Below, one piece after another: positions 3,001-49,615 of a DNA stretch of 64,000 nucleotides. Position 1 is the first letter of the stretch, and every line of letters starts with the position of its first letter. The position numbers were made by a program, and so were the translations under genes. The notes below the pieces were generated by a model, which was not told where the DNA came from, ran no database searches, and saw only the letters and a program-made list of their open reading frames with translations. This DNA comes from Strigops habroptila (taxonomy: Eukaryota; Chordata; Aves; Psittaciformes; Psittacidae), in NCBI RefSeq assembly GCF_004027225.2, contig NC_044277.2, positions 35,124,812-35,188,811 of the forward strand, written 5' to 3'.

Positions 3001-3930
3001 GCTACCGTGCACCCGTGCCTGCAGAAGTTGTGGCGACAGAGGTGACAGCACAAACACCTCAGCAGTGTTGTAGAGATGCATTAAAGGCCAGTGAGAATCT
3101 GCAGTTACAACAGCAGTTCTTTACTTGGTAAGAACTCCCCATCATTATGTGCTGGGATTTTTTATTCCAAGACACTATTCAGCATCAGGTGCACATTGTC
3201 ATGCCTTTTCCCCCAGCACCAAGACACCAGGTTGGGAAACCCACTTCCTTCCACCAGTGCGAGAGCCCATCTTCCAGAAATCTACACCAGGATCAAAACA
3301 GACTCTCTGAACCTGTTTGTTTCAAACCTGGTGTCTGATCCAGTGCTAGGTTTCTTAGGAACAGTTCATACCCTTATATACCGAAACATAACAGTTTGGC
3401 ATTGGCACTGCAAATAACTGCTTAGGAATAAAACTCTATAGTGCTCACACACTGCTATCAGAAGGAACCGTTTTTTGTGGAGTCACATATTAGCAAACCT
3501 CGGTTACTGAAATCCCAGGGAAGGAAGTCCCATTCCTTCAGCGGGATGGGACCGGCAAACCTTAATGGCCGTATCCAATTAACCTGCGTGTGCACAGCCT
3601 GCTGCACACCGATCTCTGTTCCCCACACCCCCTATTGCAGCTGTAACTGCAGCGCCGTGCCCTCCAGCCACACACCGCTGTCCCTTAGCACATATCCTGC
3701 CAATCGCTCCTCTCTCCCCGAGAGACCCGTAGGACAAAGCATTCATTGTGCTGGTGTAAACCAAGGGATGACAACACCAGAAAGACGAACTTTCCATGGC
3801 TCTGACTTCTCAAAGGCTGACTGTTCAGCGAGAACGGAAGCGTTTTAAACGCTGGGTTGTGTATGAGACACAGCGAAAAGAAGGCGAAGGTGCTTCCTCC
3901 CCTGGCAGTCCTGCCTGTAACCCGCCTGGA
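1..3930. other. Intergenic flank, no gene recognised
   Basis: I see no exon with a recognisable protein family and no RNA gene here. Open frames in this stretch are short, overlap on both strands and lack conserved motifs. There is a somewhat GC-richer patch at about 820-1030, an AT-dinucleotide patch near 1,760-1,795 and a long G run (listed separately). In human the next gene on this side is TCF24; no bHLH coding exon was seen, so it lies outside the window or only its untranslated sequence is present. Confidence 0.5.
2754..2776. repeat. Homopolymer pair A7-G16
   Basis: Seven A followed directly by sixteen G. Such runs are length-unstable and hard to sequence, so the exact length may be an assembly estimate. 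No gene is associated with it. Confidence 0.9.
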
Positions 3931-4060
3931 ACAACCCGCCCCGGGTGAGGCTCCGCCCCGCCGCAAAGCGCCGCGGTGCCGCGCGGCCTTCCCCGCCCCT
4001 GCCGCGCGGCCTATTTAAGGGGGTCCCGGCGAGGCTCGGCCTTTCTGCGCGGCCCGGGGC
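3930..4060 (+). promoter_or_regulatory. SNHG6 promoter: GC-rich, TATA-like box, 5'TOP start
   Basis: A GC- and CpG-rich block starts near 3,890 and continues to about 4,330. A TATA-like TATTTAAG lies at 4,012-4,019, and about 28 bases downstream is a C followed by a pyrimidine tract (CCTTTCT, start near 4,040). A TATA-like element just before a C-plus-oligopyrimidine start is the layout of 5'TOP genes, the class to which snoRNA host genes belong. The exact start is inferred, as no transcript was seen. Confidence 0.65.
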
Positions 4061-4098
4061 GCTGGGGCGCGGCGGTGGGGATGCGGGGCGCCCTGCGG

Positions 4099-4139
4099 CG
4101 GGTGCCCCTCTCGGCGGGTGCCCCTCTCGGCGGGTGCCC
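4099..4139 (+). repeat. GC-rich 16-bp tandem repeat
   Basis: A 16-bp unit beginning CGGGTGCCCC and ending CTCTCGG occurs twice in tandem (4,099-4,130), followed by a partial third unit. It lies in the inferred first exon or first intron of SNHG6, inside the CpG island. Confidence 0.85.
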
Positions 4140-4392
4140 GGCGGCGGGGGCGGTGCTGCCGGTGGCTCTGTGGCTTGTGAGCGGTTCCGTCCGTGCCGCA
4201 GCGGTAGCTTGGGCCGCCGGGCGCTCCGGCAGCGGCAGGGCGGTGGCTGGCGGCCCGGGGAGCGATGCACTCGGCCTCAGAGCTGCTGCCGCTGCCTCCC
4301 GAGGCAGCTCCTTCGGCAGAGCATGTGCGCGCCCGAGCAGCAGAGCGGTTCCCCGTTTCTCTCACAGGGGTTAGAACTGCTCTCTGCTGTTC

Positions 4393-4459
4393 AGCGGCAG
4401 AGGGGTTGGAGCTGGATGATATTTAAGGTCCCTTCCAACCCAAACCATGCTATGATTAT
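4393..4459 (+). mobile_element. CR1 LINE 3'-end fragment
   Basis: A short piece of the CR1 3' terminus: a stretch like GTTGGAGCTGGATGATATTT, then AAGGTCCCTTCCAACCC and CCATGCTATGATTAT. This order is typical of the bird CR1 tail. It lies in the 5' part of the SNHG6 gene. Confidence 0.85.
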
Positions 4460-6154
4460 AAATCCAATTCTGGCAGCACAAAACAATAACTATAAGCTGA
4501 GGAACTGAAGGGGCGGGTCGCTGGCACCGTTCCCTTAACGGCGTAAGGCATCACTTAAAAGGTGAGCGATTATCACCCTGTTGTAACTGCGTTGTTGTTT
4601 TGGTTGCCAAGCGTAGTGGCTGTGTGCTAACAACAGTGGAGTTGCGGAGTTCAGCCTGACACCCAGTAGCCACAAAGGGACATGCGTGTGTCTTGTGAGA
4701 GCAAGAGGGACCTTGTTAGTGCGTGCTGCTCTGCTGCCAGCGGGCTGCGGTGGTTGCTTTGGGTTAGCTCTAGATTCATCAAGTCTTCAAAGGAATGACA
4801 GATCAGACATCCAGAGAGACTCGGTTTTGCTGATAAATCATTTTCATTGACAGATGTGTGTCCTAATTCTGAAGATAAATGGTCTCTTTTCTGCTTTTGG
4901 GAATTTGGCAAGTGGTGTAGGTGACCCTGGCCATGCCCTTTGGGGGCAGGACCCCAGGGCTCAGTGGTCTCTTTGGCCATGCTCTCCTGCCAGGACCATT
5001 GTGTGAGTGCTGACCCTAACTCAAGTGATAGGGAAACAGGTCAGCAGTGGTGGGTGAGCGGGGGTTAGAGGCTGTGCCCTGCTGGGGTACCCCTCTCCCC
5101 AGGGCTGGCTGTTTCTCAGGAGCAGTGCAGCAGTCCTGCAATCAGTCATTGTTTGCACGGGAGCTTGCTCTAGGCGAGTCTTGTCTAACCGCCAGCTCAG
5201 CTGGCGCTGTCAGGAGTTTTTTCCCCAGGTAATGACAAAGCCAGCAGTGAGGTTGGTATTTGTTTGACTGGCTTACTTTCCCCAAGGACTTGTCGGTGCT
5301 TTTGGCTACTGGCTCAGCAGTGGAGTTCACTAAATTAAATGTCTTGTCTTTTCACTGTTTCAGGCAGCAAGTGAAGTTATGAGTTTGTTACAAGGTTTGG
5401 GAATCATCAGTCTGGACTCTGCCATGCTGTTGCCTTGCAAGCAGAAAGATGTCATGTCAATTCTGGAGCTACAGAAGTAATTATTTTTTCCTGTGCCTAA
5501 AAATATTGAGGAAAGCCTCCTGAAATCTAGATCTAGAGTTCTGAAGATGTTTTATGGCTTGTAAATTCTCTTACAGATGAAGGAACAGGGAGGAATAGGC
5601 TTGCATGTAGTGTTAAGAGTTTGAAACTCAATAACAGAAGCTGTTATGCCAGCTATAAAACGTCCTGGACTTGCTGCCTGGAACTAATCAGGTGCAACCC
5701 AAGAACCCTGAAGGAATTGTAAGGGGGAGGTTTGTAATAGTATCGGAGAATCTAGTTTTTAACTGGGGTGAGAAACAAGGCTTCTGCTGTGGAGAACTAA
5801 CAGATGCTCGTTGGGAGTGAGAGACTGAGGAACAGTGTGTTCACATCACTGCCCCTGCTGCCACTTGACTGTGTCAGTCTGTTGGAATATATCTCAAAGG
5901 GAAAGGCGGCTGCAGCACTGAACTGCGCCTCTAGATTGGCACCTAGGGCTTGAATTAACAGGGAGGGACCTGCATTTCTGTGCCCAGAGAGAGCTGTTTT
6001 GTTTCTGGCTCTGCTGAACCCATTCTGTGCTTAACGGTTACAAACAAGGTTCTCCTTCAGTTTACAGAAGTGAGTCTCTTGAGACAAACAAATCCCCTTG
6101 TGTTCGATACCTCGGGAACATTACAACAGCCTTACAACAGGCAGGAACCTGTTC

Positions 6155-6233
6155 GCTGGCACGATGATGCTAACACTTTGCCGTTTACCCAACTGAAATG
6201 TGTGATGAGCAGTGTTGTATCTGAGGTGCCAGC
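6155..6233 (+). ncRNA. SNORD87: SNORD87 (U87) box C/D snoRNA, copy 1
   Basis: This is a box C/D snoRNA expected to guide 2'-O-methylation of 28S rRNA at the site assigned to human U87 (G3723). The terminal stem GCTGGCAC / GTGCCAGC closes the unit. Box C is ATGATGC at 6,164-6,170 (one mismatch to consensus), D' is CTGA at 6,193-6,196, C' is GTGATGA at 6,202-6,208 and D is CTGA at 6,221-6,224. The guide upstream of D' includes GCCGTTTACCC, complementary to the conserved 28S sequence GGGTAAACGGC. The fifth base upstream of D' pairs with a G, as the targeting rule requires. It sits about 65 bases before a 3' splice site of the host gene. Confidence 0.9.
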
Positions 6234-6643
6234 TAATTAGGAGGGGTTTTCTACTTTGATTTGCTACCATTGATTCTGATTTTATTATCCTTTTAAAGGT
6301 GCTGTGACATCAGATGACCTTCTCCACTGTCTCCAAACCCTGTGTATGCACATACAGCCAACAGCAGACTGCATCCACCTCTAGAAGAATGGGTGTTTAA
6401 GGTGGTAAGTTGCTCTTTTACAATGCTAGTTAAGTAACCAGTAAGCGGTACTGGTGAAGGCCTGTAGTGGCCACATTTGCTGCTGCCTGGAGCTGTGTGG
6501 GCTTCCATCAGCTGGAGGTGTGGCCTGTTGGTCAGGGACACTTTTGGACCACTGGCTGACTTTACTCTCCTTCAGTTGTGGTACTGCTGCTTGTCATCTT
6601 CTGTTTTGCTTAAAACATCCCAGAAGAAACTGGGGAGACGTAA

Positions 6644-6764
6644 GGGTATGGCCGGGTTGGACGGGGCTTTGAGCAACCTCGTCTAGTGGAAGGTTCCCCT
6701 GCCTGTGGCGGGGGGGTGAAACGGGATGATCTTTAATGTCACAAACCATTCCATGATTCTATAA
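6644..6764 (+). mobile_element. CR1 LINE 3'-end fragment
   Basis: Typical CR1 tail order: a GGTTGGACGGGGCTTTGAGC segment, then a GTCTAGTGGAAGG segment, a CCTGCC(T)GTGGC segment and the terminal CCATGATTCTATAA. It is inserted in the host-gene intron that also holds SNORD87 copy 2, upstream of that snoRNA. Confidence 0.9.
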
Positions 6765-6884
6765 TAAAAAGCTGTGCTCCTGTTGGAGAATACTCTTTTC
6801 TGAGGACACAACCTCCTTAATATGGCTTTTCAAAAATAGTGATTTATAAAGGTGTTGTATTAAGTTTATTCTAGAAGACCTGTT

Positions 6885-6963
6885 GCTGGCATAATGATGA
6901 AATCTTTGCCGTTTACCCATCTGAATTTTTTGTGATGTGTATCTTTGGCTCTGATGTGCCAGT
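6885..6963 (+). ncRNA. SNORD87: SNORD87 (U87) box C/D snoRNA, copy 2
   Basis: A second U87-type snoRNA about 730 bp downstream of the first. Box C is a perfect ATGATGA (6,894-6,900), the guide again contains TTTGCCGTTTACCCA, D' is CTGA at 6,921-6,924, C' is GTGATGT at 6,932-6,938 (one mismatch) and D is CTGA at 6,951-6,954. The closing stem is CTGGCA / TGCCAG. The guide is identical to copy 1 but the region between C' and D has diverged. Flanks share ACCTGTT and GCTGGC with copy 1, which suggests duplication of the snoRNA with some surrounding intron. It ends about 94 bases before a host-gene acceptor. Confidence 0.88.
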
Positions 6964-7310
6964 ACAGTTAGTAACTTTGTGTAAGATCAATTAAGGGAAC
7001 AGAAAACTAATCTTGAAATTCCCTTTTTTTTGTTTCCCTGTTGTTGCTGTCTTTAGCTTGAACACAGCAGCCTGAAATGTGGAGTTCTAATGCACTTGGA
7101 AATGCTTTCCTGGCCCTTCCTGTTCCTCAGAAATATGGCTTGATTCAACAGCAAGGCAGGGGAGCAGCTGTTCTGTGAACAATCCTCAGATGATGTTCAG
7201 CTGAAACTCTAGAAAGGGAAACAGCCCTGTGGGCACTTGGAGAACTCAGTATGAATACCTAACTGTACCAAATTGAAGAAAATTGAATAAATTGAGTGTT
7301 AAAACCTGTA

Positions 7311-8343
7311 GAAGAACTGTCTAAATGAGTGTTTACACTGTTAGTAGTGGCAGCTTTCCTGCTTGCCTTCATGGCAGTGTGTGTATGAGTAAAATCTCGG
7401 GTTTGTGTTTTCAGTGACTAGTGTTTTGTCGAGGCGCTGTGAGTGGTACATCCTGCTGGATGCCCTGGCTAGGAGTCACACCGAGCAAACCTTTGGTGTC
7501 CAGCTTGTTAAAGCTGACGGGGAAACCTGTACAATTTTTCTGCTGCCTCTTTTTAACCCAGGCCCTCGTGGATGTAAAATCTGGCCAGTGTTCTGCCTAT
7601 TGCCATATTGATGTTAGGAAGACAGAATTCAGGAAAGTCCATAGTTGGAGAAGCATGTGGTGTCTCAGCCACTTCATCTTCTACCACACCATTCTTTACA
7701 CTTGTTTTTGCAGTGAGGTAGATAGAGTTGATCTCACTGAGCTGCCTACCCACCAGATTGCCTGACAGCTTTTTTGTTTCACTTTCCTGTAGGGTTCTAC
7801 TCTCCCCTGCAGTCTATACAAAGTAATGTGGAAATAGTGAGGTTTTTTAGACTGCAGGAGCACACTTGGCATCCTGCTCTAATATGGTGCTGTAATGTAA
7901 AACTAAGACACAGAACATCAAGCAGTATGGTGACGCTTTTATACATTTTACAGAGCACGAGTAATTTAAGAAAGTTGGCTTAAGCCGGAAAATGTACCAC
8001 CCCTCATTGAGTGGTGTATTTAAAAAGAAGCAACAAGAGAAACTTTTTGGAGAGAGTTCATGGAGTTGAAATGAAACATTAGATTCTAAACTCCTGGTTT
8101 AATTCTTAGTTGTAGTCTTATTAAAAGCCCTGCTTTATTCCTCGCTTAACTGTGGACGAACAGTGGTAGCCAGGAAGTAAAGTTCAGGTTCTGGCTTTAT
8201 TCTGAAGCTGTGGCCTTCCAGGATGAAGATGTCACTCCTGCCTCTAAAACAACACTGTCACAAAACTTGTGATTAAATCTTGTCAACCATGCTTTATCCC
8301 TTAGCAAACCAGCACTGACCTGTCTGACAAAAACACTAAAAAC
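7311..8343. other. Gap between convergent 3' ends of SNHG6 and MCMDC2
   Basis: No recognised gene. A stretch at about 7,405-7,765 on the + strand is open in two frames and follows a good acceptor-like pyrimidine tract ending TTTTCAG at about 7,414. It could be an alternative downstream exon of the host RNA, but I recognise no protein family in it. The rest looks like unique, AT-rich sequence. Confidence 0.45.
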
Positions 8344-8349
8344 TTTATT
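8344..8349 (-). terminator. Candidate MCMDC2 poly(A) signal
   Basis: TTTATT on the + strand, that is AATAAA on the minus strand, 72 bases downstream of the MCMDC2 stop codon. It is the first canonical signal after the stop. Further ones on the same strand lie near 8,133 and 8,196, so a longer 3' UTR is possible. Confidence 0.55.
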
Positions 8350-8420
8350 AGTTGTATATTTCTAACTGCAGTCTCAGAAGGCTAAAGACTCAGGCTTTAC
8401 TTACTTACACAATGGACTTT

Positions 8421-8587
8421 TCACTCTTCATTAGTGTTAATGTGAATTCCTGGGCCATATGCACCAATGAACTTCAGCAGTTGATGGTGACACTGCATGA
8501 GGTAACTGTCTCTCTGTTGCAGGGAGTTTTCATCACTGAGGTCAAATGGAAATACAGGATTTGGTGCTATGCATAATGCAGACTTGC
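8421..8587 (-). CDS. MCMDC2: MCMDC2 coding exon 14 (last)
   Basis: Encodes the C-terminus, including APNPVFPFDL and FIGAYGPG, and ends in TGA at 8,423-8,421. The acceptor is TTGCTTAG; phase 1 entry agrees with exon 13. The end HINTNEE differs from the human TTIFSSDE. Confidence 0.93.
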
Positions 8588-11500
8588 CTAAGCAAAGAAG
8601 AAAGAGACTTATGCTGAAAGATGTGATAAACTTCTGCCAGATTTGATAAACTTCCCTTCGAAGGGAAAAGAAAGCTGTGACACAGATTACTTAAATGGCA
8701 ACATAAAAGATTGTGTTGTGGAGTGTTACATGGTAATTCTTGTCTCACTGCCAAATTTGTGTATGAACCAATGTGACTGTGATGCTAGATAAACAACCTG
8801 CAACCCTTGTCTACTGTTTCCCCAGGGAGGGAAGTCTGCCAGCATGAAGGACAGCACTGACTGTGTGGCAAAGTCAACTGAAAGACCTGACACAAGTCTT
8901 CAGTGCAACTTCTGGACTTTGATTTGACATGAACTATTATTGCAATCAATTGATACAAACTTTTTTCAAACTGACAAAATCTGAAAACTCTGTACCCAAG
9001 ACTAAAGACTGAGTTGCATTATTTACCGTGTTTTAGGGTCAGAGATGATTCAAGTAACAAGACGGCAATCAACGCATCTTCTTCAAGTACTTTCTTTCTT
9101 AGACTTAGTTTAGCATGAGCCTTAGACAGTGAAATCCTGACACATGAATACAAGCATGTCAGAAATAAATATTGCGGACATGAATGTAGTATGTACTGTG
9201 CTGCTTCAAGCGCTTCCAAACCTCAAAAGTTAACACAAGTGGGTTTTTCCTATACCTTGGCTGTGTAAACTCCCCCCAGATACTGTGTGGTTATACTTGT
9301 CACTGACGAGGTGTGTGTTACTAGGCATGCTTTTCTTATGCTCTGAAAGCAGTGGAAGCTGGCATATTATATACTGTTAATAACTTTGCTTGTGTAATAC
9401 CAAGCTGTAATAATTAAAATCCGATTTTTGTTTTCCTAGATAGCTTTAATATTGAAAATTGTTTCTTAAATCCCTGGGCCTTTTGCCTGGTGAAGTTCCT
9501 TAAACTTTTTTCTTTTCGACATCAATATAGAAAATGTTATTTATAAATGGTAAATGAGATTCTTTACACTTGAACTTTTCAAAACTTAGCGTCCTGTCTA
9601 GATTTGTACTTAACAAGCTCCTGAGCAGCTCAGCACAATTTCTATTTGAAATGTAGATGTGTTTCCTTTACGATGAAAAGTAGGACATACAGAATTTTTA
9701 GTGCAGATGCTGATAATGTTGATCCATGCACAGAATCTCTTCTCACTCTGCGACTTGCGAGATAGTAGCCCTGAATGAGGCTTTCTGCTTCTGGACTTAG
9801 TTCAACATGAAGATTCTTAGCAAACGAAATAAACTGGAGAGGGGGTATACATTTTAATATTTAACTGGAAAATGAAGAATTTACCTTTTTCACACCTTTT
9901 AACATGCCACTGGCATAGTAATACAGTTTAGGTGGTATATTCTACCAATAGTCTTTGTAAAGACAGATGTCACCATTCAGCTATGGATGAGGATGGATCT
10001 CAGATGCTAAACAGCATTATCTGTTAATTATTCTAGAGATATGAACATTTTATTTAGAAAGGAATATTAACTTTTACTACTGATTGTAAACTGCACTGGT
10101 TGAAAGTAGATATTGGAGATCAGTTCTCCTATCAGTGGTAACTGATAGGAGATGTTTTTCAGAAACAAGATAAATGGATTTATGATGCTGGCCCTTTTAA
10201 AGAACTGCAGCTAATGTTATCAATGATCCTGTTAGTGCTAGTGGGAATATGGGGGGGAATAAGGGTAGAACGTGAGTGTTAGCAGTCAGAATGTGTGGAG
10301 AGAACTTTCCAATCCCAGAAACATTGTGATATTCCCAAGTATAATGCACTTCTAAATTACTGTGTAGGATTTTTTACCTCCTCATAATCCTGCATTCTGA
10401 ACTGCTGGGAGACTTTGTACAGCATGGCTTCAGGATGAATGGCTTTTTTCAAGATATGGTGTACCAGAGGTGAAGATAGTTGACATGAAGGAAACTCATC
10501 GTGTATCAAAAGCCCAAAACCATCTACAAGGTTAGGTGGAATCAAACTCATGTCCTAGAGGGAAGACCCAAAGAAAGAAAACAACTACTTCAGTTTGGTA
10601 TCAAATATCTTCTAAAATGAGCTAAAGTCACTGAAGTTGTGACTTTTTGGGAAATACAAATTTGATTGTTTTCATTATTTCATGAGTGGAAATAACCATA
10701 AACACATGGCTGCTGTAGCACAGTTGGTCGTAACAAGGCACGTGCTTTACCATCTGTCCAATTAAAAAGTTGTCCTTTTGTATATGTTTCTTTGAGGAAG
10801 AATCCACATAAGACCAAAAGTTGGTCTGAAGTGAAATAGTAACTTGCTGGTCAGCCTCTTCTCCATACTTCTTCCCAGGAATGAAGACCGTTGTTGCTCT
10901 GCTCTCTAGGACTAGGATAAGAAAAAATACATCAGTTTGACTATAAATCCTAATACCCACACACACTATCTGAAGCCAGTCACGATTATGTATTTCACTG
11001 AATTGTCACGATCAATGGAGTGATCTCTGCCTGGGTAGCAAATGTAAGCTTACAGGACCTGGGCTTTTTTGTCCTGGTTTCTGTACACAGACTTATTAAA
11101 ACCAGCTTACAGCTTTTCCCAGCATTTGAGTGCCATAAACTGGAACAAACCTAGCCATAAATTTGCATGTTTGTTTTGTTCTGTCCCCTCATTTGTTATT
11201 AGGTGTGAGATTACCGGAGTGTAGAAGTTCAAGTTTATCCCTTTTATATGAAGCCAAGCCTCCTATGTAGCAGATGCCACCCTTGGCCAGCACAGCACTG
11301 CAAGCTTGAATACTGGCGCTTCCAGTTCCGTGTTTGTCTTTGGACACGGAAGGGAAAATGTCACTGTAAGGTGGGTGTCGTATGCCACGAGGCAGAAGAC
11401 AGAGGCTGTAATTCAGAAGCCTAGAACATTAAACAACTGTCAGTGACAAAGTGTTAAATTATCATTCAGTTTTTCAAAATTTAACAACTTAATGCTTTAT

Positions 11501-14500
11501 AATGATATTTACATATATTAAGACTCACTTAGAAGCAACAACAACCACAAACCCAACCCTTAACAGAAAACCAGTGTCAAAACTAAATGTTTAAAGTAAC
11601 TTTGGACATAAATGTAGAAGGCCAAGCCTTCTCTGCAACAGCTGCCAGCAGGACTATGTTTCTTATGGATTTAACACGAGGCAAATTGTGGCTTGCAATA
11701 GAAGCAATTCCTAGGAAGTCAAAGAAGTCTCATAATTTAACCCCGTATTGTCAACTCCTGTTCCTCTTCTAAAAAACTTTTCCAGCTATCTAGAAGGGCA
11801 GAGGATTAGTAATCCTGGCCATCTGGGATAAATGAGAAGGCTGGGTGGGAACTTGCAAGCTCTGCCTGCACTTACTATTAGCTTCAAAAATACTAAATTT
11901 TTCCATTCTAACCTATGTGAAAAATAAGGAATCTCTTTACCTATCAATTACCAGCGTGTCACTTGTCACAATCAACAGATCCAGGTAATCTGCATTTTCT
12001 TTGTCACACGTCTGTACCAGACTCAGCAATATTGCCAGCTTGAGAGTATTGTAAGTGCCTGGTGGAACAACTTGAGAAGCAAAGATATTGGCAAGGATGG
12101 CAGTAAACCTCCAGCATGAACTTGCAGTCAGTGAGAGCAGATACTTAAAATTGTCACTGACAAAAGAAGGACCTAATGAAAACAAAGTATGGGTTAATGA
12201 ACGCTTAGTAAGACAGCTATGCAGATATATTAGAACACTAAAAATCACCATTTTAGTCTTGATGCAAAACTTACTTACAAAAAATATGTTTATGTTTCAA
12301 GCACAAACTGAGAATGTAAACACCTGACACCATTAATTTTACTACTAAAATGGTAGCAGACATGACCTGCTAGAACCGACAGAATAAGAAAGGAATAACT
12401 AAAATATCAGGTTTATCTAATGTATGATTTCAAAATATCTTCCAATGGATAGGAAAATTTGGAAAGAGAAGTTGAAGAACTGCAATAAGTAATCATGTAG
12501 TTTCCCAGTGTTTGGAAAGCAGGCAAAGGAAGATGTTCTCAAGGGACAGAAAGCATTGCAGACAGTGAGCGGAAAGTCCCAGAGTGGTTTTGTAACCTGG
12601 ACCTTTAGATAACAGAAAACTGGATCAGTTCTCAAGATACTGTTCTAGAAGATTTTTAATGGAACTTTCTTACCACTTGGTTTACAGAGCTGTATGCTGT
12701 TGACTTCTATACATGCTGTAGCTTGTAAGCCATTCTGTACACAAGCTGGAATTCCTATAATCTTGTAGTGGTTTCCTATTTTCATTTTATTGGCCAGTTC
12801 ATCTAGAAATCAAAAAAAAGGAGGGGGAGGAGAGAAACCTGCAGATGTGTGAGGGCATAAACCAGTTAAAAAGACATGGTCAGAAACCCAGATTCTGAAT
12901 GGTTCTCTTTTATGCTTTAATTGCAGGAAACAACAGTTGGCTGCCAGGTTCACCATAACAGCCTAGAATAAAATGAAGCATGCAATTATAATTGATTAGT
13001 GCAAAAGGTAAGGAAGGCACAAGGGGTGAGGAAAAGCAGGCTCCTGATAAGGCAAATGGATGGCGCATTTAGTTTTGCATTGAAAAGAAAATGGGCAGTC
13101 GTTTGCAAGCATGCATTCCTACTCTGAAACTTGTGGTGACACTGGGATCAGTTACTGTCCTATCTGATGTCAGAAAAAAAGATACAATAAAAAGGTGAGT
13201 TTCAGAAAGACACACAAATGCCTTTGGGAAGATTTGTATTTCTGTGTTTCTTAAAAAGAAAAAAAAACCCCACATTTATTTTTTGGAAAGGAAAGCTACA
13301 TCCAACCATGTCTGAATCTCAGCTGTGAGACTCTGTCTGACCTCACTGATCACTGAAGCCACTGGAAATTTAATGCATGGAGAACTCAAAGTATCTCACC
13401 CATTGAGTGTTTTTATTATTTTCATAATTTTATTATTATTAGGGGTTTTTTTTTCTACTTAGCTTTCAATAAATTAACCATATAATTCCATAGACTTTTT
13501 GAATGGTGGGTGTTTTGGAGGTTTTTTTAAGAGAATTAATGGAATTATGTTGAGGAGTTGTGATTTTAGTTGGATATTCACACTGCAAACCATTTAATGT
13601 TTGCAGTGCAAGGTAGTGGTAGCAGAAGCCAAAAATCCTGACAGAATGTGGAACACAGCTAGATTGAGGAAGGATGTTAAAAATGCGTGAAGTTGGCACA
13701 AATCACTGTGACCAAAGGAAGTAGCAAGGAGGAAAAAACAAGCTGCAGTTAGGATGTGATGCTGCAGAGCTGGCCAGGGGATTTTATTCAGATAAAAGTG
13801 AACACAACAGTTTTGCCATGTGCACTCTTCAATCACCTGTGTATACTGTTTAGTCATCTACATTTAGGTATTTTTCCCTCCTAATCTTATTAAATAACTG
13901 CAATGTAAGTTATGACTTTCACCATTTTGTCTGGACAAATGACCTGTAAGGCAAATGCAAGGGATTGTAACCGTTCAATTCTAACCCATTTTTGACAAAA
14001 CTCCAAAAGTCAGCTTACCTCTCAAGAAAACTGTGAAGGTCTGAATCCTGAAATGTGATTTATCATTGGAATATCCTTTCAAAGCATTCAGAACTTTTGC
14101 ATCAATCATTTCAACTATTTGCTTATCTTTCAAAACAAAGGCAAAGAAAAGGTTAATTATCTGGAAAACAGTATGGCTTTTATTATTGTTATTTTTATTA
14201 AATGACTTTATTTTTATTTTATGTTTCTATGATTTTCGGGCTTTTTCCACTTCACTATTTTGCTTACTCACTGCTTAACAGAAGTAGGAAAGAAACAGAT
14301 CTAAAAATAAAACTACATAGGTCCTACCACCAAGTACTCTAAATTTCATGTCTTCCTGCAGTGGCGAAGAACACAAGCTACACACAAAATCATTCCTCAC
14401 TGTGGCAGACTCTGTAGCTCCAGGCAGATGCACTCTTATGTATCTAAACCCTAAAAAGAAATTATTTATGGAACATTTACAATGAGGACATGGCTTTCAT

Positions 14501-16551
14501 TTTAAATTTCCCATTTTGAATAGACGTGACATCCCATCCCTGGAAGTGCTGAAGGCCAGCCTGAATGGGACTTCGTGTGATGTAGTATAGTGGGACGTGT
14601 CCCTGCCCATGGCAGGGGGTTTGGAACCAGATGACCTTTAAGGTCCATTCCAACCCAAACCATGCCATGCTTCTGTGGTTAAAATACTGGACACTGAAAT
14701 GCCAAATATATCATGTGTTTCTTTGGATGAGCATACGTTCATGTACTATGCCTCCCCTAAAATGATCTGTATCATTTACTGCAGGCTGACCACAAGATGG
14801 CAGGAGTTCCTACCGCACATTCGCAAGCAGAAGAGCTTGGCGCGGCTTGCTGAGCGGCGGGGAGGAAGCCACTGCCTCTGCCTGCCCTGGCAACGCCGCG
14901 GAAAAATGGATATTCATTACTAAAGGTACGTGCCCTCGTAAAGACATCACTATGATTTATTCTGCAGCCTCCTAACTGTGGGATTTAGCTTCTCTTTTAT
15001 TTATTTACGGTCTCTGTTACAGGAAGTAAACAAAACAGCCTTTAAAGTCCTTAAGGCCTAATCCTGCCACAAGCGGTTCAGTAATATTACTCAAAGAAGT
15101 AGTTCCACTGAAGTGAGCTACTTATTAAAACAAACTTGTTCTGTGCTAGCAGCTTTTGCCCATCACTTAAGGATACTGTTCTACAGTATATTACACACAG
15201 AAACACAGGTTCCAAGAAAAAAAAGTATTCTGCTAGCTTAGCTTTTTTTTTCTTTCAGATAGTTTATATAAGATATGTTGCCAATATAATTTAATGAACT
15301 ATCTCCATCATTAGGAAAATGGATTGCTGGCATAGCTGTGCTTCCAAAACCTTTAATAATGCTGAGCAACCACTGGCAGGGTCCACTGCTTTCAATTAAC
15401 AAAAATGATACTGTGCTCATTACAGAAATGTATGCATAATAAGACTGCATAGAAGAATGCCTTTGTCATGCTGGGGTTTTACCTCTGAAATTATCAAAAT
15501 TACTATAAAGCTTCTGAAATAGTACTGATTTTTTTTTTTTACTACCTTTAGAAAATTGGCAGGTTTCCTCAGTACAAAGAAATCTTGCTCCTTGTGTGTA
15601 TTTCGTTACAATTCCCATTGCAATTGCTATTCCTTCAGACATGTAAAATCTTTGAGATGTGTAATTAAAGGGAAACGCAGCAAGGCTCAGAACGTAACTT
15701 GGTAAAGGTGGCAAATGGGTTGGTTTCAGCAATATACTGATCTAACAAGAGAGACAATCACATTAATACCATCCAAATATGTTTGTTTGTTTGTTTTAAA
15801 ACCACTTTACTTACATGGACAATCACACAATGCGATACATGGCTACTAGAAAAATAAATCAGAAATGCGTGAAGAGTAATGAGGTTTCATATTAATCACC
15901 TCCAAATTCTTGCAATAGGGTTGGGTGAGATTTCCAGCTATTTTTAATTACAACTAATACTACAGCCCAAGGGAAAAATGAAAAATGAAAAGTTAATATA
16001 AAAATAATACTAGTTAATATTTCACCATACTTGAAAGATTTAAGATCTAAATGGAAGAAAACTGCAGCCTCACCTGGGCCTCTGTCTGCAGTTGTTCAAT
16101 TAATGATAATGTCTTAATAGCTATGAAGCACACCTGTGATTGACAAATCATTTCGTTTTAGAGAGGAAAATCTAGTTAAAATGTAGAAGACGTACTTTTT
16201 TCTACTCTTGTCTATCAAGCAATACTTACTGACTGGAAAATCTGTGCAGCTTGTATGGGATTATGAAGAATGTGGTTTCCAAGAGTTGCATCTAATTCAG
16301 CAATATCAGAAGGATTTATTGAAATAATGAAATGATAAACAGCGTAACTTTGTTTTGAGTCTGTAGGAGCAAGAAGTATCTTAAATAAAAAATAACAAGA
16401 GATCTGTGTAACATTACATATCAATTTAACAGACTATCTGTTGAGTAATACCACTGTATTTTTTGCAATCCTGCACGAATTTCTGAAGGCCACCGCTTCT
16501 GTCCAGGTAAACAAGGGCAACTTCCCTCATCTTCTGTATTTCACGATGCAT
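8421..16551 (-). CDS. MCMDC2: MCM domain-containing protein 2, 14 coding exons, intact
   Basis: MCMDC2 is a divergent relative of the MCM helicase subunits. Mouse work links it to meiotic double-strand break repair and chromosome pairing. Coding exons, 5' to 3' on the minus strand: 16551-16452, 16360-16230, 16133-16074, 15741-15546, 14450-14328, 14126-14019, 12802-12674, 12172-11941, 11420-11215, 10911-10751, 10554-10378, 9833-9691, 9136-9027, 8587-8421. Every junction is GT-AG and all phases agree, giving 2,043 bases, or 680 residues plus TGA; I recall the human protein as 681. Translated exons align along their whole length to the human protein. The Walker A position of true MCMs reads GGLASYKRDKL, which keeps a lysine but lacks the GDPGxxKS pattern, so ATPase activity is doubtful, as in other MCMDC2 proteins. 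The start ATG at 16,551 is chosen by alignment; an in-frame ATG seven codons later is the alternative. Confidence 0.95.
9027..9136 (-). CDS. MCMDC2: MCMDC2 coding exon 13
   Basis: Encodes SLSKAHAKLSLRKKVLEED and LESSLTLKHG, the MCM-type C-terminal helical region. The acceptor is TGTGTCAG and the donor GTAAAT. Phase in 2, out 1. Confidence 0.95.
9691..9833 (-). CDS. MCMDC2: MCMDC2 coding exon 12
   Basis: Encodes SFAKNLHVELSPEAE, GYYLASRRVRRDS and LSASALKIL. The acceptor is CTCTCCAG and the donor GTATGT. Phase in 0, out 2. The intron downstream to exon 13 (9,137-9,690) holds no feature I recognise. Confidence 0.95.
10125..10152. repeat. Perfect 12-bp inverted repeat, 4-base loop
   Basis: Arms TCTCCTATCAGT (10,125-10,136) and its exact reverse complement (10,141-10,152), separated by GGTA. 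It lies in the MCMDC2 intron between coding exons 11 and 12 (9,834-10,377), which otherwise shows nothing. Confidence 0.95.
10378..10554 (-). CDS. MCMDC2: MCMDC2 coding exon 11
   Basis: Encodes DMSLIPPNLVDGFGLLIHDE and later LVHHILKKAIHPEAMLY. The acceptor is CCCTCTAG and the donor GTAAAA. Phase 0 at both ends, 177 bases. Confidence 0.95.
10751..10911 (-). CDS. MCMDC2: MCMDC2 coding exon 10
   Basis: Encodes ESRATTVFIPGKKYGEEADQ and FWSYVDSSSKK, ending LIGQM. This is the region after the degenerate Walker A segment. The acceptor is TATCCTAG and the donor GTAAAG. Phase in 1, out 0. Confidence 0.95.
11215..11420 (-). CDS. MCMDC2: MCMDC2 coding exon 9 (degenerate Walker A)
   Basis: Encodes LLPRGIRHPPYSDIFPS, then GTGSASIQACSAVLAKGGIC and YIGGLASYKRDKLELL. 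The last part sits where MCM helicases have GDPGxxKS. An 8-bp inverted repeat (TTCCGTGT / ACACGGAA, about 11,335-11,360) lies within the exon. The acceptor is GTTCTAG and the donor GTAATC. Phase in 2, out 1. Confidence 0.95.
11941..12172 (-). CDS. MCMDC2: MCMDC2 coding exon 8
   Basis: The longest coding exon (232 bases). It encodes LLSLTASSCWRFTAILANIF, then SQVVPPGTYNTLKLAILLSL and LLIVTSDTLVIDR. The acceptor is TTCATTAG and the donor GTAAAG. Phase in 1, out 2. The 520-base intron downstream (11,421-11,940) holds nothing I recognise. Confidence 0.96.
12674..12802 (-). CDS. MCMDC2: MCMDC2 coding exon 7
   Basis: Encodes DELANKMKIGNHYKIIGIPA and CIEVNSIQLC. The acceptor is ATTTCTAG and the donor GTAAGA; 129 bases in phase 1. 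The downstream 501-base intron (12,173-12,673) shows nothing notable. Confidence 0.94.
12803..14018 (-). other. MCMDC2: MCMDC2 intron 6, one small hairpin
   Basis: AT-rich intron of about 1.2 kb. It contains a perfect 10-bp inverted repeat at 13,581-13,608 (arms CACTGCAAAC / GTTTGCAGTG, 8-base loop). No coding exon or mobile element is recognised. Confidence 0.8.
14019..14126 (-). CDS. MCMDC2: MCMDC2 coding exon 6
   Basis: Encodes DKQIVEMIDAKVLNALKGYS and FRIQTFTVFLR. The acceptor is TTGAAAG, a weaker pyrimidine tract, and the donor GTAAGC. 108 bases in phase 1. Confidence 0.94.
14328..14450 (-). CDS. MCMDC2: MCMDC2 coding exon 5
   Basis: Encodes RYIRVHLPGATESATVRNDF and then VCSLCSSPLQEDMKFRVLG, the zinc-ribbon-like segment of the MCM N-terminal domain. 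The acceptor is CTTTTTAG and the donor GTAGGA. 123 bases in phase 1. Confidence 0.95.
14524..14677 (+). mobile_element. CR1 LINE 3'-end fragment
   Basis: Recognisable CR1 tail: GACATCCCATCCCTGGAAGT, then GGCCAGCCTGAATGGGACTT, CCTGCCCATGGCAGGGGGTT, GACCTTTAAGGTCC and the terminal CCATGCTTCTGTGG. It lies antisense within a MCMDC2 intron and is 5'-truncated, as most CR1 copies are. Confidence 0.93.
14790..14803 (+). promoter_or_regulatory. CTCF-like motif in GC-rich patch
   Basis: CCACAAGATGGCAG matches the CTCF core consensus (CCASYAGRKGGCRS) at all but one position. It opens a GC-rich patch (14,790-14,930, with several CpG) inside an AT-rich intron. Binding is inferred only. Confidence 0.45.
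15546..15741 (-). CDS. MCMDC2: MCMDC2 coding exon 4
   Basis: Encodes KPTHLPPLPSYVLSL, then NYTSQRFYMSEGIAIAMG and VTKYTQGARFLCTEETC. The acceptor is TCTTGTTAG and the donor GTAGTA, followed by an A-run. Phase in 0, out 1. Confidence 0.96.
16074..16133 (-). CDS. MCMDC2: MCMDC2 coding exon 3
   Basis: A 60-base exon encoding VCFIAIKTLSLIEQLQTEAQ, colinear with the human protein. The acceptor is AATCACAG and the donor GTGAGG. Phase 0 at both ends. Confidence 0.93.
16230..16360 (-). CDS. MCMDC2: MCMDC2 coding exon 2
   Basis: Encodes DSKQSYAVYHFIISINPSDI then LDATLGNHILHNPIQAAQIF. The acceptor is CTCCTACAG and the donor GTAAGT. Phase in 1, out 0. Confidence 0.96.
16452..16551 (-). CDS. MCMDC2: MCMDC2 coding exon 1 (start codon)
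   Basis: Starts MHREIQKMREVALVYLDRSG and continues LQKFVQDCKKYS, parallel to the human N-terminus. The exon itself begins at about 16,597 after the acceptor TTCTTCACAG, leaving 46 bases of 5' UTR. The donor is GTATTA. Confidence 0.93.
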
Positions 16552-16597
16552 CTTCCCAGGCAGACCTCTGCGCTCTTTATCGAAATGTTGGGATAAA

Positions 16598-17900
16598 CTG
16601 TGAAGAAATGATGTCAGACCTGGCCATGCTATGATAATAATAAAGGTATATATTAACAAAGCCATACAAAGTTAAAATAAGTCTCTTTTTCAAACTGTGT
16701 AATTCTCTGAAGGATTTTTAAAATTCAGGGGAAAGTTCTTTCCAATGGCTGAAGCATACTACATTCCCAAACTAAATTCCTAAAGAATGCTCTGTTGTTT
16801 TCTTTTTTCAGTGATTTATTTCACTGCTCAATTCACTAACCCATGAAATGAAGGCTTGCATTTTAACTTAACCTCTCCTCTATGTTATTAGGTATATTCA
16901 GCCCATCAAAAGCAGGACTTAAACTCCTCCCTTATCTGAGATGTCTGTCTTAGCTGCTAAAAGTGCAAAACTGTACGACACTTTTTTCCCTTTTTAAATC
17001 TGACCTTCCTACTGTGCTGTTACCTCCTGTATTACCCACTTCAGGTGCTGATCTTGCACACACTTACTGCCATCCATGTACACAAAAGATCAGTCCCAAC
17101 TCCCATAGGCAAAGCTGTAAGAACTACAGTTTTGGATTGGAGGCTGACTGTGCTCTTCAGTGCTCCTCTCATTGTGTACCTCTGCGTATTTTCTTTTATT
17201 TTTTAAAGCAGAATCTCATGCCATGAAGCACTACTTTGCCGAATTTAGAGGGAGAATTACTAAGACCAAAATACGGCATTTTGTATATACATATCTGTTT
17301 TACTGCCTTACAGATTTTCTTCCACAAAGCGTCCGTTGCCCTCTCCGTAGATGACCAATATGAAATGCCACTTCAATCTTCAAAACCAGATTTAGCTTCC
17401 TGGTAGAGGGCACAACACAGAATTACTGGGCTGATGAGGAAGCAAAGCTCATAGAATATGAAAGATCCCGTGTAGGAGTTCACAGAACTGGCTTTGGGAG
17501 GACAAACATATCAATATCAGAGAGGAGTAGCTGGATACCAGTGCAGCACTAGTGTGGCGGCAGTGTAAACTCTATTGTCTGACAGTTGTATGCTGTGGGC
17601 TGGTAGATGTGTTTAGTGCCCAAAGTATCACATTTTAAGAACAAATTGAAAGAGAATTTATAGTAAAGTTTGTTTTTTTTTCCCAGTTTCTTTAGGATTA
17701 CTGCTACATAATTACTGATCCATCCCTCAAAATGTTTATCAAGAAGGGGTTAAAAAACCACACACAGATTCACCATACCTCCCTGTGTTCCCCGGGCTAG
17801 AAGGAAGGGACGCCAAACACGACTAGGAAGGACTAAGCTATGGTCCCAGTCATTGTGCACTAAATACTGTCATCGCCTAAGCTTCAGAAAGTCTGACCAG
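16598..17900 (-). other. MCMDC2: MCMDC2 5' intron
   Basis: Presumed intron between the non-coding first exon in the CpG island and the start-codon exon. AT-rich; no coding exon, RNA gene or mobile element recognised. Confidence 0.55.
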
Positions 17901-18420
17901 TCCCACCACGGAGGTGATGGTGCTCATCGGTGCCCCCCCCAGCCAGCGATACCCAGCACCGCCTCCTGGCTTCCAGCTCCTGCCACCAGCACCCCCTCCT
18001 CACAGACCTCACGGGCGCTGTCCCCCAAATACTCCACAGGCTTCCTACGCCGCCCTCTTCAGCACTGCTGTGTCGGCAGCAGTGGGTACAGAGCGACCGG
18101 CCTGTTCACACCGCAGCGGGCAGAGGGTCGTGGCGCCTTACCCCCAGGGCGCCGGTGGGCCCGCGACAAAGGCGAGCGGGGCCGCTTACGGGGCGCTCCC
18201 TCAGGCCCTCAGCCGGGGCGGCCCAGGCGGGAAAGGCGCCACAGCTCCCCCCCGGCCCGGCCCCACCCCGGCCTCCTGAGGCGCCGCTGCCGGGGCTCTG
18301 AAGGGCAGCGCCGGGATTGAAAACGACTCCCGAGAGGCAGCGGCTGCACAAGCGCACCAGGCAGCGCCTCTGCGGGGCGGCTCTGCCCCGTTAAACACGG
18401 CTACTGTGGTGCACGGCCAC
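17900..18420 (-). promoter_or_regulatory. MCMDC2: CpG-island promoter of MCMDC2
   Basis: A GC- and CpG-dense block in an otherwise AT-rich region, directly upstream of the MCMDC2 start-codon exon. A good minus-strand donor (GTAAGC, + strand 18,189-18,184) could end a non-coding first exon at 18,190. The start site lies probably between about 18,250 and 18,400; no TATA box is evident. Overlapping long open frames here on both strands reflect the GC content and not coding. Confidence 0.65.
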
Positions 18421-19990
18421 CGCTTTACTGTGGCCAGCGTAGGAGGCAGGTCACTAGGAAAGGGTCAGGCACTCATAGCGTAGCAAGTACTATAAAATAA
18501 TGTACTTGTGAAACCATTTTCTCTCATTAATAAATACTGCATATCTCACTGCTGCCTTTAGCATGCCAGCCATCTGCAAACTTACCTCGCAGGACAGTAC
18601 CTCTACACTTTCTTCTGCTGTATTTCATTCAGTTCACGTTTTTACAACTGCCATGCATTTCAGTCAGTCCATCTTGCTGCTTCTCCCCCTCTCTTCCCAG
18701 GCCAAAACACCAGAAAACACAAAGGCGGTGCATCATTCCTTTGCTTCTGTGGCAACAGGAGAGGTCTGCTCCTTGCAGGGTTGGGATGCACCTCTGGAAG
18801 GGGAGGAACAACTTCACTAAGGACAGGCAAAACCCCTTGTGTTAGTCACATAAAGACAAATTTTACCTCCCTTTATTACCTATCTGCTGCAACAGGAAGG
18901 GAGACCACAGATGGTTCCTGTGTAGGCTCTCCATCAATCTCCTATCCAGGCTTTACCACAACTATTGCTTCAGACTTCACTTGTCAGCACCAGCACTGGA
19001 TGAAGGAGCTGTAACACTGAACCTGTCTTACTTTGAAACCCATCATCATGGGATGGAGAGAGATGTGGAACAAGAGCACTAGATGCGGAGGCTTTATTGC
19101 CTGAGGTTGTACACAGTTATCTTCACAAGTCCTGAGCTGAACGAGGCGTTTCACAACATGAACTTACAGTACAAGAAACAAAATGAAGTATTGCAAGTGG
19201 TATGTTTAACAAATTCACACTTCACCAAAAAGGCAGAGCCTGCTGAAGGAAAAAGCTTAATAAGCTATTACTAAGCTGCTCTCCTAGAAATAACTTTAAC
19301 TATCACCACCATCTTAAAAAGGCAAGAAACCCTTAATTCGTGATAAAACCCCCCAAAACCCTGCACACAGTCACGCAGCTAGGTACAGACATCTTGGAAA
19401 CACAAGACAAAGTAAAAGGGGTGCTACCTTCCCCAGCAACAACTTCTTAAGTATCCCCTCTCCTTCCCATCTCTCTACAGCACTGTACTTCCTTGCCATA
19501 AAGATAAGGCAGTGACAGTACCCCACGACGATTTCAGCAGTATACAGAGTGAAAATGTGGTATGAGAATGGACGCTTCTCTTCTTAAAATCGATTTCTGC
19601 TTCCAAGTCCATCAGAAAGACATGGGGTTTTCGTGTTTTGTTTGTTTGGGGCTTTTTTTTGTTTTATTTTTCAAAAAGGATAATGCTGCTGCTTCCTCAT
19701 GATTATAATAGCAAGGATTACAGGTAGTTGCTGGTTGTCCTGAACATCTGCACAGCTACTTCCAAACCTCTCAACATTCCAGAGCAGCACCACAGTAAAT
19801 GAGAGCCAACCCATTACTTCACTCCCACAAACGATGCAGGTCCTTCCTTCCATGCCTGTGTAAATTCTTACTTCTTTTACCCAACCACTCTTTCCAACAC
19901 CTCATGTAGCAACTGCTCAGCATCACTTCAGCACTATGCAGAAGTTAGTTCTATAGGAGATACTCCTCCAGATAAGCACAGAATCCTGTT
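18421..19990. other. Spacer between MCMDC2 promoter and SGK3 3' end
   Basis: About 1.5 kb without a recognised gene. Candidate minus-strand AATAAA signals lie near 18,873, 19,091 and 19,661, so the SGK3 3' UTR may extend into this stretch. No mobile element was recognised. Confidence 0.45.
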
Positions 19991-21479
19991 TCAGTTTTCA
20001 CTTGTCTAATGTTTCACTGTTATAACATTAATTTCAAAAGAATTAAGATTTGATACATTATTTTCCCCAACATTCTCAATTTTTAACTGACCTTCATGCA
20101 ATATGGATAGCATTTCTCTTAGCTAGGTCTTGGTAAAAAATGAGATGATTTAGATATTGAAACTTATCTTTTACTCATCAGTGTCTTAGCAAACTTCTCT
20201 CAAATCAAGACATTTAACAGAATATATTTATGAACAAAAAACACAGAACATTGAGTAACAGACAAAAATAAGTTGTTATTTACAAGTAATATATATAATA
20301 AAACTACTACTGTGATAGGCATTTATACACTGTAACTGCAGTCAATTTTTGCATTGTTTAAAAAAATTTCCTTAAACAGAAATTGTTCAGTTATCAGTTT
20401 GTCCATACACGTGTATGTTATGAGAAATACAACAGCTTTTCACATTTTTAAAATTATCAGCGTAATTTACATTTCCCCCCCCCCCCCCCAATATCAAGTG
20501 AAGATTTTAAAATGGTGCAAACTGGAACACAAAGACAAGTAGCTATGACCGTTGAAATACAATCAATTTGGGACATATTAGTGTTTCGAACTGTAAATCT
20601 GTGAGAAAAATCCCTAGTATTTGGCATGGTCCCCTCACCACCCACCCCCGAAAGGTCAAAGCAAGATAGCCTTTTAAAGTAACAGTGATTATTGCATATT
20701 AGATCTTTGGAAAAGCAGAGTTTTAACCAAGAATATTTTTAATGTAGTTGAAATATAGATGTATTTACCTCAGGGAGGAAAGAAGAGTAGAACACATGAT
20801 CAGTAATATTATCGAATCAATCCAGTTAATTTTTTCCATCCTTGCTTTGAGTTATCCCCTATACCTTAGATAATCCAGTGGAGTGAATGGTATTTCAGCA
20901 AGTGCAAGAGCAACAATCCAGTTTTACATGACCGCCTTTTCATTCTCTAGAAGTCCTTTAAGAATCTGGGTCTTAACTTCTATTAACCCCACATTTAAGT
21001 GCTGACAGGTAAATTAACATATATTTCGAACTGATGTAATAGGGAAAACGTTTACCTTTCTTAAACCAGGATATACAAAAGACAATTTGCATAGTTACAA
21101 TTCAAGCACAAATAGGTACAAAAGCATTTATAAATTTACTAAATTTGCTGCTGTTTGTGCCAGGCAAATCTTAGACAGGTATGAATGTAAACTTGGAAGG
21201 GACTGAGGAGAACAGTCAGTGTTTTTTGCTTAAAATATATGTAGAGAATGCTTTTTAAAGGTTTTAAAAAATATTTTCTGCAGCAGGAACAAACAGTTCA
21301 AACCCCAAAGAAAGCCATCCAAAATGCCCAAATTCCTCCTATACAGCAGAGAAAGTTTGTTCATAGGTTTCAAACCTACATACAAAACGAGGCACTAGTT
21401 ACGCTATTTTGGAATGTGTCCATAACCCTAACATTTCAGCTCACCCCAAGACTTCCAAAACACCATGGCTTCTAACTTC
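19990..21479 (-). other. SGK3: Probable SGK3 3' UTR
   Basis: AT-rich sequence directly downstream of the SGK3 stop codon with no other gene. An ATTAAA signal on the minus strand lies near 20,740 and AATAAA near 19,661, so the true end is not fixed. The low limit given is arbitrary. Confidence 0.4.
20475..20489. repeat. C15 homopolymer
   Basis: Fifteen consecutive C on the + strand, which would be a G15 run in an SGK3 transcript if the 3' UTR reaches this far. The length may vary or be mis-assembled. Confidence 0.9.

Positions 21480-49615
<28,136 letters not shown>

Follow-up and report, generated by a model that had tools for sequence, protein, structure and literature searches.

Two paralogous SNORD87 units in successive predicted introns of a probable SNHG6 orthologue of Strigops habroptila

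A 64,000-nucleotide stretch of the Strigops habroptila genome (assembly GCF_004027225.2, contig NC_044277.2, positions 35,124,812 to 35,188,811; hereafter the window) harbours two box C/D snoRNA units of the SNORD87 (U87) family. Both are probably intact, paralogous genes, the likeliest host of which is the bird orthologue of SNHG6, a non-coding gene, and they would guide, redundantly, the methylation of the 28S rRNA nucleotide equivalent to human G3723. We assign this joint reading a probability of roughly 0.93. The family match, the boxes and stems, the guide, its pairing with eukaryotic LSU rRNA and the two matches in the assembly are all observed in the sequence.

Copy 1 (6155..6233) and copy 2 (6885..6963), both on the plus strand, match the Rfam covariance model of SNORD87, RF00439, over its whole length (model positions 1-85 of 85). 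Their scores in a search of the whole window are 44.2 bits (E 1.2e-5) and 46.0 bits (E 4.1e-6), respectively, and the E values are 4.1e-7 and 1.3e-7 when the search space is 2.1 kb. These full-length matches, together with the four boxes and the stems, confirm the identity that the first-pass annotation had proposed for both units, at exactly the same ends. At the gathering threshold no match was found in the window, both scores being below the cut-off of 50 bits, which is a curation threshold and not a biological feature.

Each copy has the C, D', C' and D boxes and the closing terminal stem of box C/D snoRNAs. In copy 1, a stem of eight pairs (6155-6162/6226-6233, plus strand) encloses box C (ATGATGC, 6164-6170), D' (6193-6196), C' (GTGATGA, 6202-6208) and D (6221-6224). 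The stem of copy 2 (6885-6892/6956-6963, plus strand) also comprises eight pairs, two of them wobble, with the outer pairs CUGU/ACAG in the predicted fold; its boxes are C (ATGATGA, 6894-6900), D' (6921-6924), C' (GTGATGT, 6932-6938) and D (6951-6954). The last base is thus off consensus in box C of copy 1 (C) and in C' of copy 2 (T), the other C or C' box of each copy being perfect, as had been noticed in the first pass. Both copies fold more stably than any of 200 dinucleotide shuffles (z -4.29 for copy 1, -4.24 for copy 2). A loose scan for C-D'-C'-D arrangements closed by six or more contiguous stem pairs returned these two units as its only matches in the window; 60 random windows generated with a first-order Markov model contained no match.

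The guide GCCGTTTACCC lies upstream of D' at 6180..6190 in copy 1 and at 6908..6918 in copy 2 (plus strand), and the same guide is found in the Rfam alignment of family sn2343. It forms the same duplex with LSU rRNA in both copies, with 11 Watson-Crick and two G-U pairs. We tested it against two non-bird sequences, L001 and L002, which are eukaryotic rRNA contigs inside the bacterial MAG records JABSRU010000113.1 and JAESRW010000139.1 and apparently represent contamination of these MAGs. L002 contains 18S, 5.8S and 28S. A eukaryotic LSU rRNA pattern had no match in viral contigs, and a shorter form of it had two in genome contigs; an LSU segment gave three partial rRNA-like matches in the Strigops assembly, none of them across the target.

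In L001 and L002 the best LSU site for both D' guides is GGGTAAACGGC, and none of 40 shuffled guides per copy paired as well. With the 15-nt guide segment TTTGCCGTTTACCCA identical between the copies, the notion that both carry the same intact guide is well founded. The nucleotide methylated by a box C/D snoRNA is the one opposite the fifth base upstream of D', and the third G of GGGTAAACGGC pairs with that base. Complementarity around the G3723 segment, with the correct D' spacing, was found in both of these non-bird rRNAs. The position of the duplex agrees with the published SNORD87 target: according to Makarova and Kramerov (2011, PMC3349704), G-3723 is a methylated nucleotide for which SNORD87 can serve as guide.

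The two copies are 77% identical across 88 nt (blastn between the introns, E 3e-13). Their box cores and stems are nearly identical; differences are found in the spacers and in the C'-D segment, the latter having diverged more than the identical guide, as described earlier. On the 5' side, the similarity reaches approximately 7 nt beyond the stem (ACCTGTT), on the 3' side only a few bases, and the next best blastn match between the introns is 12 nt long (E 0.074). The shared flank invoked in the first-pass annotation as a sign of local duplication is real but short, with about 7 nt outside the RNA. A local duplication is plausible. Because the similarity ends so close to the stem, this duplication may either be old, with flanks that have since drifted, or have moved little beyond the RNA itself.

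The divergence of the copies also bears on whether both are functional. One of them alone might work, the second being a pseudogene in decay that has kept boxes of intact appearance, as could be suspected from the 77% identity over 88 nt and from the single off-consensus base that each copy has in C or C'. Nevertheless, these bases occupy the last position of the box, which lies outside the k-turn core, and neither copy has lost its guide, D', D, box cores or closing stem. Intact functional parts, together with differing spacers and intron flanks devoid of clear similarity, fit selection on both copies. We therefore consider decay of one copy improbable.

The unlike C'-D segments had also raised the possibility that the D-box guides serve another target. 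The best D-guide duplexes, both in L002, are 10 nt long for copy 1 and 11 nt for copy 2, with two G-U pairs each. As a control, each guide was subjected to 40 mononucleotide shuffles, the targets being the two non-bird rRNA contigs, with no snRNA among them; 24 of 40 (copy 1) and 19 of 40 (copy 2) shuffled guides paired equally well with L001 and L002. Target prediction thus lends no support beyond shuffles to a second target in these rRNAs, and a division of labour, with the differing D-box guides assigned to the methylation of another RNA, is very improbable.

Both copies in their intact form would reside in successive introns of a single host gene, the exons of which were delineated from splice motifs alone. 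A putative promoter on the plus strand combines a TATA-like motif (TATTTAA, 4012-4018) with a 5'TOP-like CCTTTCT (4040-4046) 28 nt downstream, in a GC-rich stretch (0.702 in 3751-4250). This arrangement resembles the 5'TOP promoters of snoRNA host genes. Directly 3' of the presumed start site, approximately three 16-bp tandem units (CGGCGGGTGCCCCTCT) are found at 4091-4139. All predicted exons and introns are likewise on the plus strand. A likely exon upstream of copy 1 spans 5364..5476, as judged by eye from an acceptor TTTCACTGTTTCAG ending at 5363 and a donor GTAATT at 5477. The intron harbouring copy 1 would follow (5477..6298, with its acceptor AG ending at 6298), then an exon between the copies (6299..6404, donor GTAAGT at 6405), the intron harbouring copy 2 (6405..7056, acceptor AG ending at 7056) and the last exon (7057..7300, end approximate, with AATAAA at 7286). 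The snoRNA ends are 65 nt (copy 1) and 93 nt (copy 2) from the acceptor AG, in keeping with the 65-94 nt and the consecutive introns described in the first pass. The putative intron 1, at 4400-4460, and the intron of copy 2, at approximately 6640-6770, contain what we take to be 3'-end fragments of CR1-like elements. Over 20 nt, the two fragments are 85% alike.

The neighbourhood of the locus bears on the identity of the host. SGK3-type exons are found on the minus strand from approximately 34.8 to 21.5 kb (window positions 21510-34812). They include a PX-domain piece (34714-34812, minus strand) that matches the Sgk3 structure 1xte (E 2.3e-8) and a Pkinase_C piece (21510-21647, minus strand) in an SGK3-like kinase exon; for the kinase pieces, the best matches in a PDB sequence search are Sgk1 structures, and Pfam is also positive. 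In human, the host of SNORD87 is SNHG6, and SGK3 is located near it with MCMDC2 between them. We did not find MCMDC2 on the minus strand, either with Pfam in the three frames of 8500-23499, a search confined to that strand, or by PDB sequence search in the three frames of 9000-21500. Pfam analyses of ten plus-strand stretches revealed a single family, reverse transcriptase, in the form of a fragment inside the SGK3 region (25201-26300, plus strand, RVT_1, E 6.1e-14) that is perhaps from an old CR1-type retrotransposon. The SGK3 exons nearby fit a host that is most likely the bird SNHG6 orthologue, as suggested in the first pass; that no MCMDC2 turned up on the minus strand counts against it.

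We searched for further copies at several scales. In the whole assembly (1,148,577,936 bases in 89 contigs), a DNA similarity search with copy 1 and the pattern RTGATG-gap-GCCGTTTACCC-NN-CTGA both returned the same two copies, with no match for the pattern control; there are thus at least two. In the window, a model built from both copies (R1) matched these two only. Applied unfiltered to 4000-9500, it gave 13 matches. Apart from the two copies, one lay on the reverse strand of copy 1, where the stem accounts for it (16.5 bits, E 0.0085), and the remaining ten scored at most 8.6 bits. Allowing up to three mismatches, the 15-nt guide segment was found in the window in the two copies and once on the minus strand (304-318, with three mismatches; 1.6 such matches are expected by chance). 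A third copy in the putative intron 1, as in the chicken intron list discussed below, was considered and rejected, as the window searches gave none there. An Rfam search of 4300-5900 gave five weak matches, none of them to SNORD87.

Several SNORD87 genes have been described in other vertebrates. According to Shao et al. (2009, PMC2653536), chicken GGgCD46 has three isoforms located in introns 1, 2 and 3 of the host EST BU308261, an 11-nt antisense element at D' and the target 28S-G-3233; its mammalian homolog is HBII-276, and almost all chicken snoRNA paralogs originated by intragenic duplication. The paper of Makarova and Kramerov (PMC3349704) equates GGN34, one of the RNAs cloned from chicken, with SNORD87C and GGgCD46a; GGgCD46 is thus SNORD87. 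It also gives 71% identity between human and chicken SNORD87, and 'No' for the identification of chicken SNORD87C by Rfam search. Its SNORD87 gene counts are four each for Xenopus and zebrafish, two for chicken and one for human, and it cites them to illustrate a low-copy trend in placental mammals, the generality of which is disputed in a response printed with the paper. The chicken counts of the two papers conflict, with three isoforms in one and two genes in the other. SNORD87 is not mentioned in the accessible main text of an avian survey (PMC4378963), and beyond these three papers our literature search found no further title on SNORD87 in birds.

The Strigops locus resembles that of chicken GGgCD46 in its family, its 11-nt D' element, its predicted 28S G target and the presence of several copies in successive host introns. 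The chicken isoforms occupy introns 1, 2 and 3, whereas Strigops has two copies, with none detected in the putative intron 1; its count equals the two chicken genes of Makarova and Kramerov. Xenopus and zebrafish have four genes each, as listed there, and all these non-mammalian vertebrates have more than one. Human SNORD87 shares the family, guide, target, probable SNHG6 host and nearby SGK3, but is a single gene. The first-pass annotation was right about that single human gene (PMC3349704). Its suggestion that the second copy is a novelty does not hold, given the chicken isoforms in three introns of one EST (PMC2653536) and the four genes each of frog and zebrafish (PMC3349704). A second copy is not present in all amniotes, as human has one; yet with published counts above one in chicken, frog and zebrafish, the second copy is unlikely to be new. 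That bird lineages vary in the copy number of SNORD87 in SNHG6, Strigops having two and chicken possibly three, by intron-by-intron gain and loss, with the guide kept by selection, is a tentative idea that we regard as rather doubtful.

For the function of the locus, we infer the following from sequence, including host expression and splicing. Each SNORD87 copy would be released from its own spliced intron and would bind the C/D snoRNP proteins SNU13/15.5K, NOP56, NOP58 and fibrillarin. The guide upstream of D' would then target the 28S G that corresponds to human G3723 for 2'-O-methylation, a site for which the two copies would be redundant.

The locus is of an already described kind, with more than one SNORD87 in a bird host gene; it is real but ordinary, and our analysis mainly documents a known locus type in one more genome. 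A threshold-based Rfam scan lists neither copy. Since both are under the gathering threshold, the lack of SNORD87 in such an annotation should not be taken as loss of the gene.
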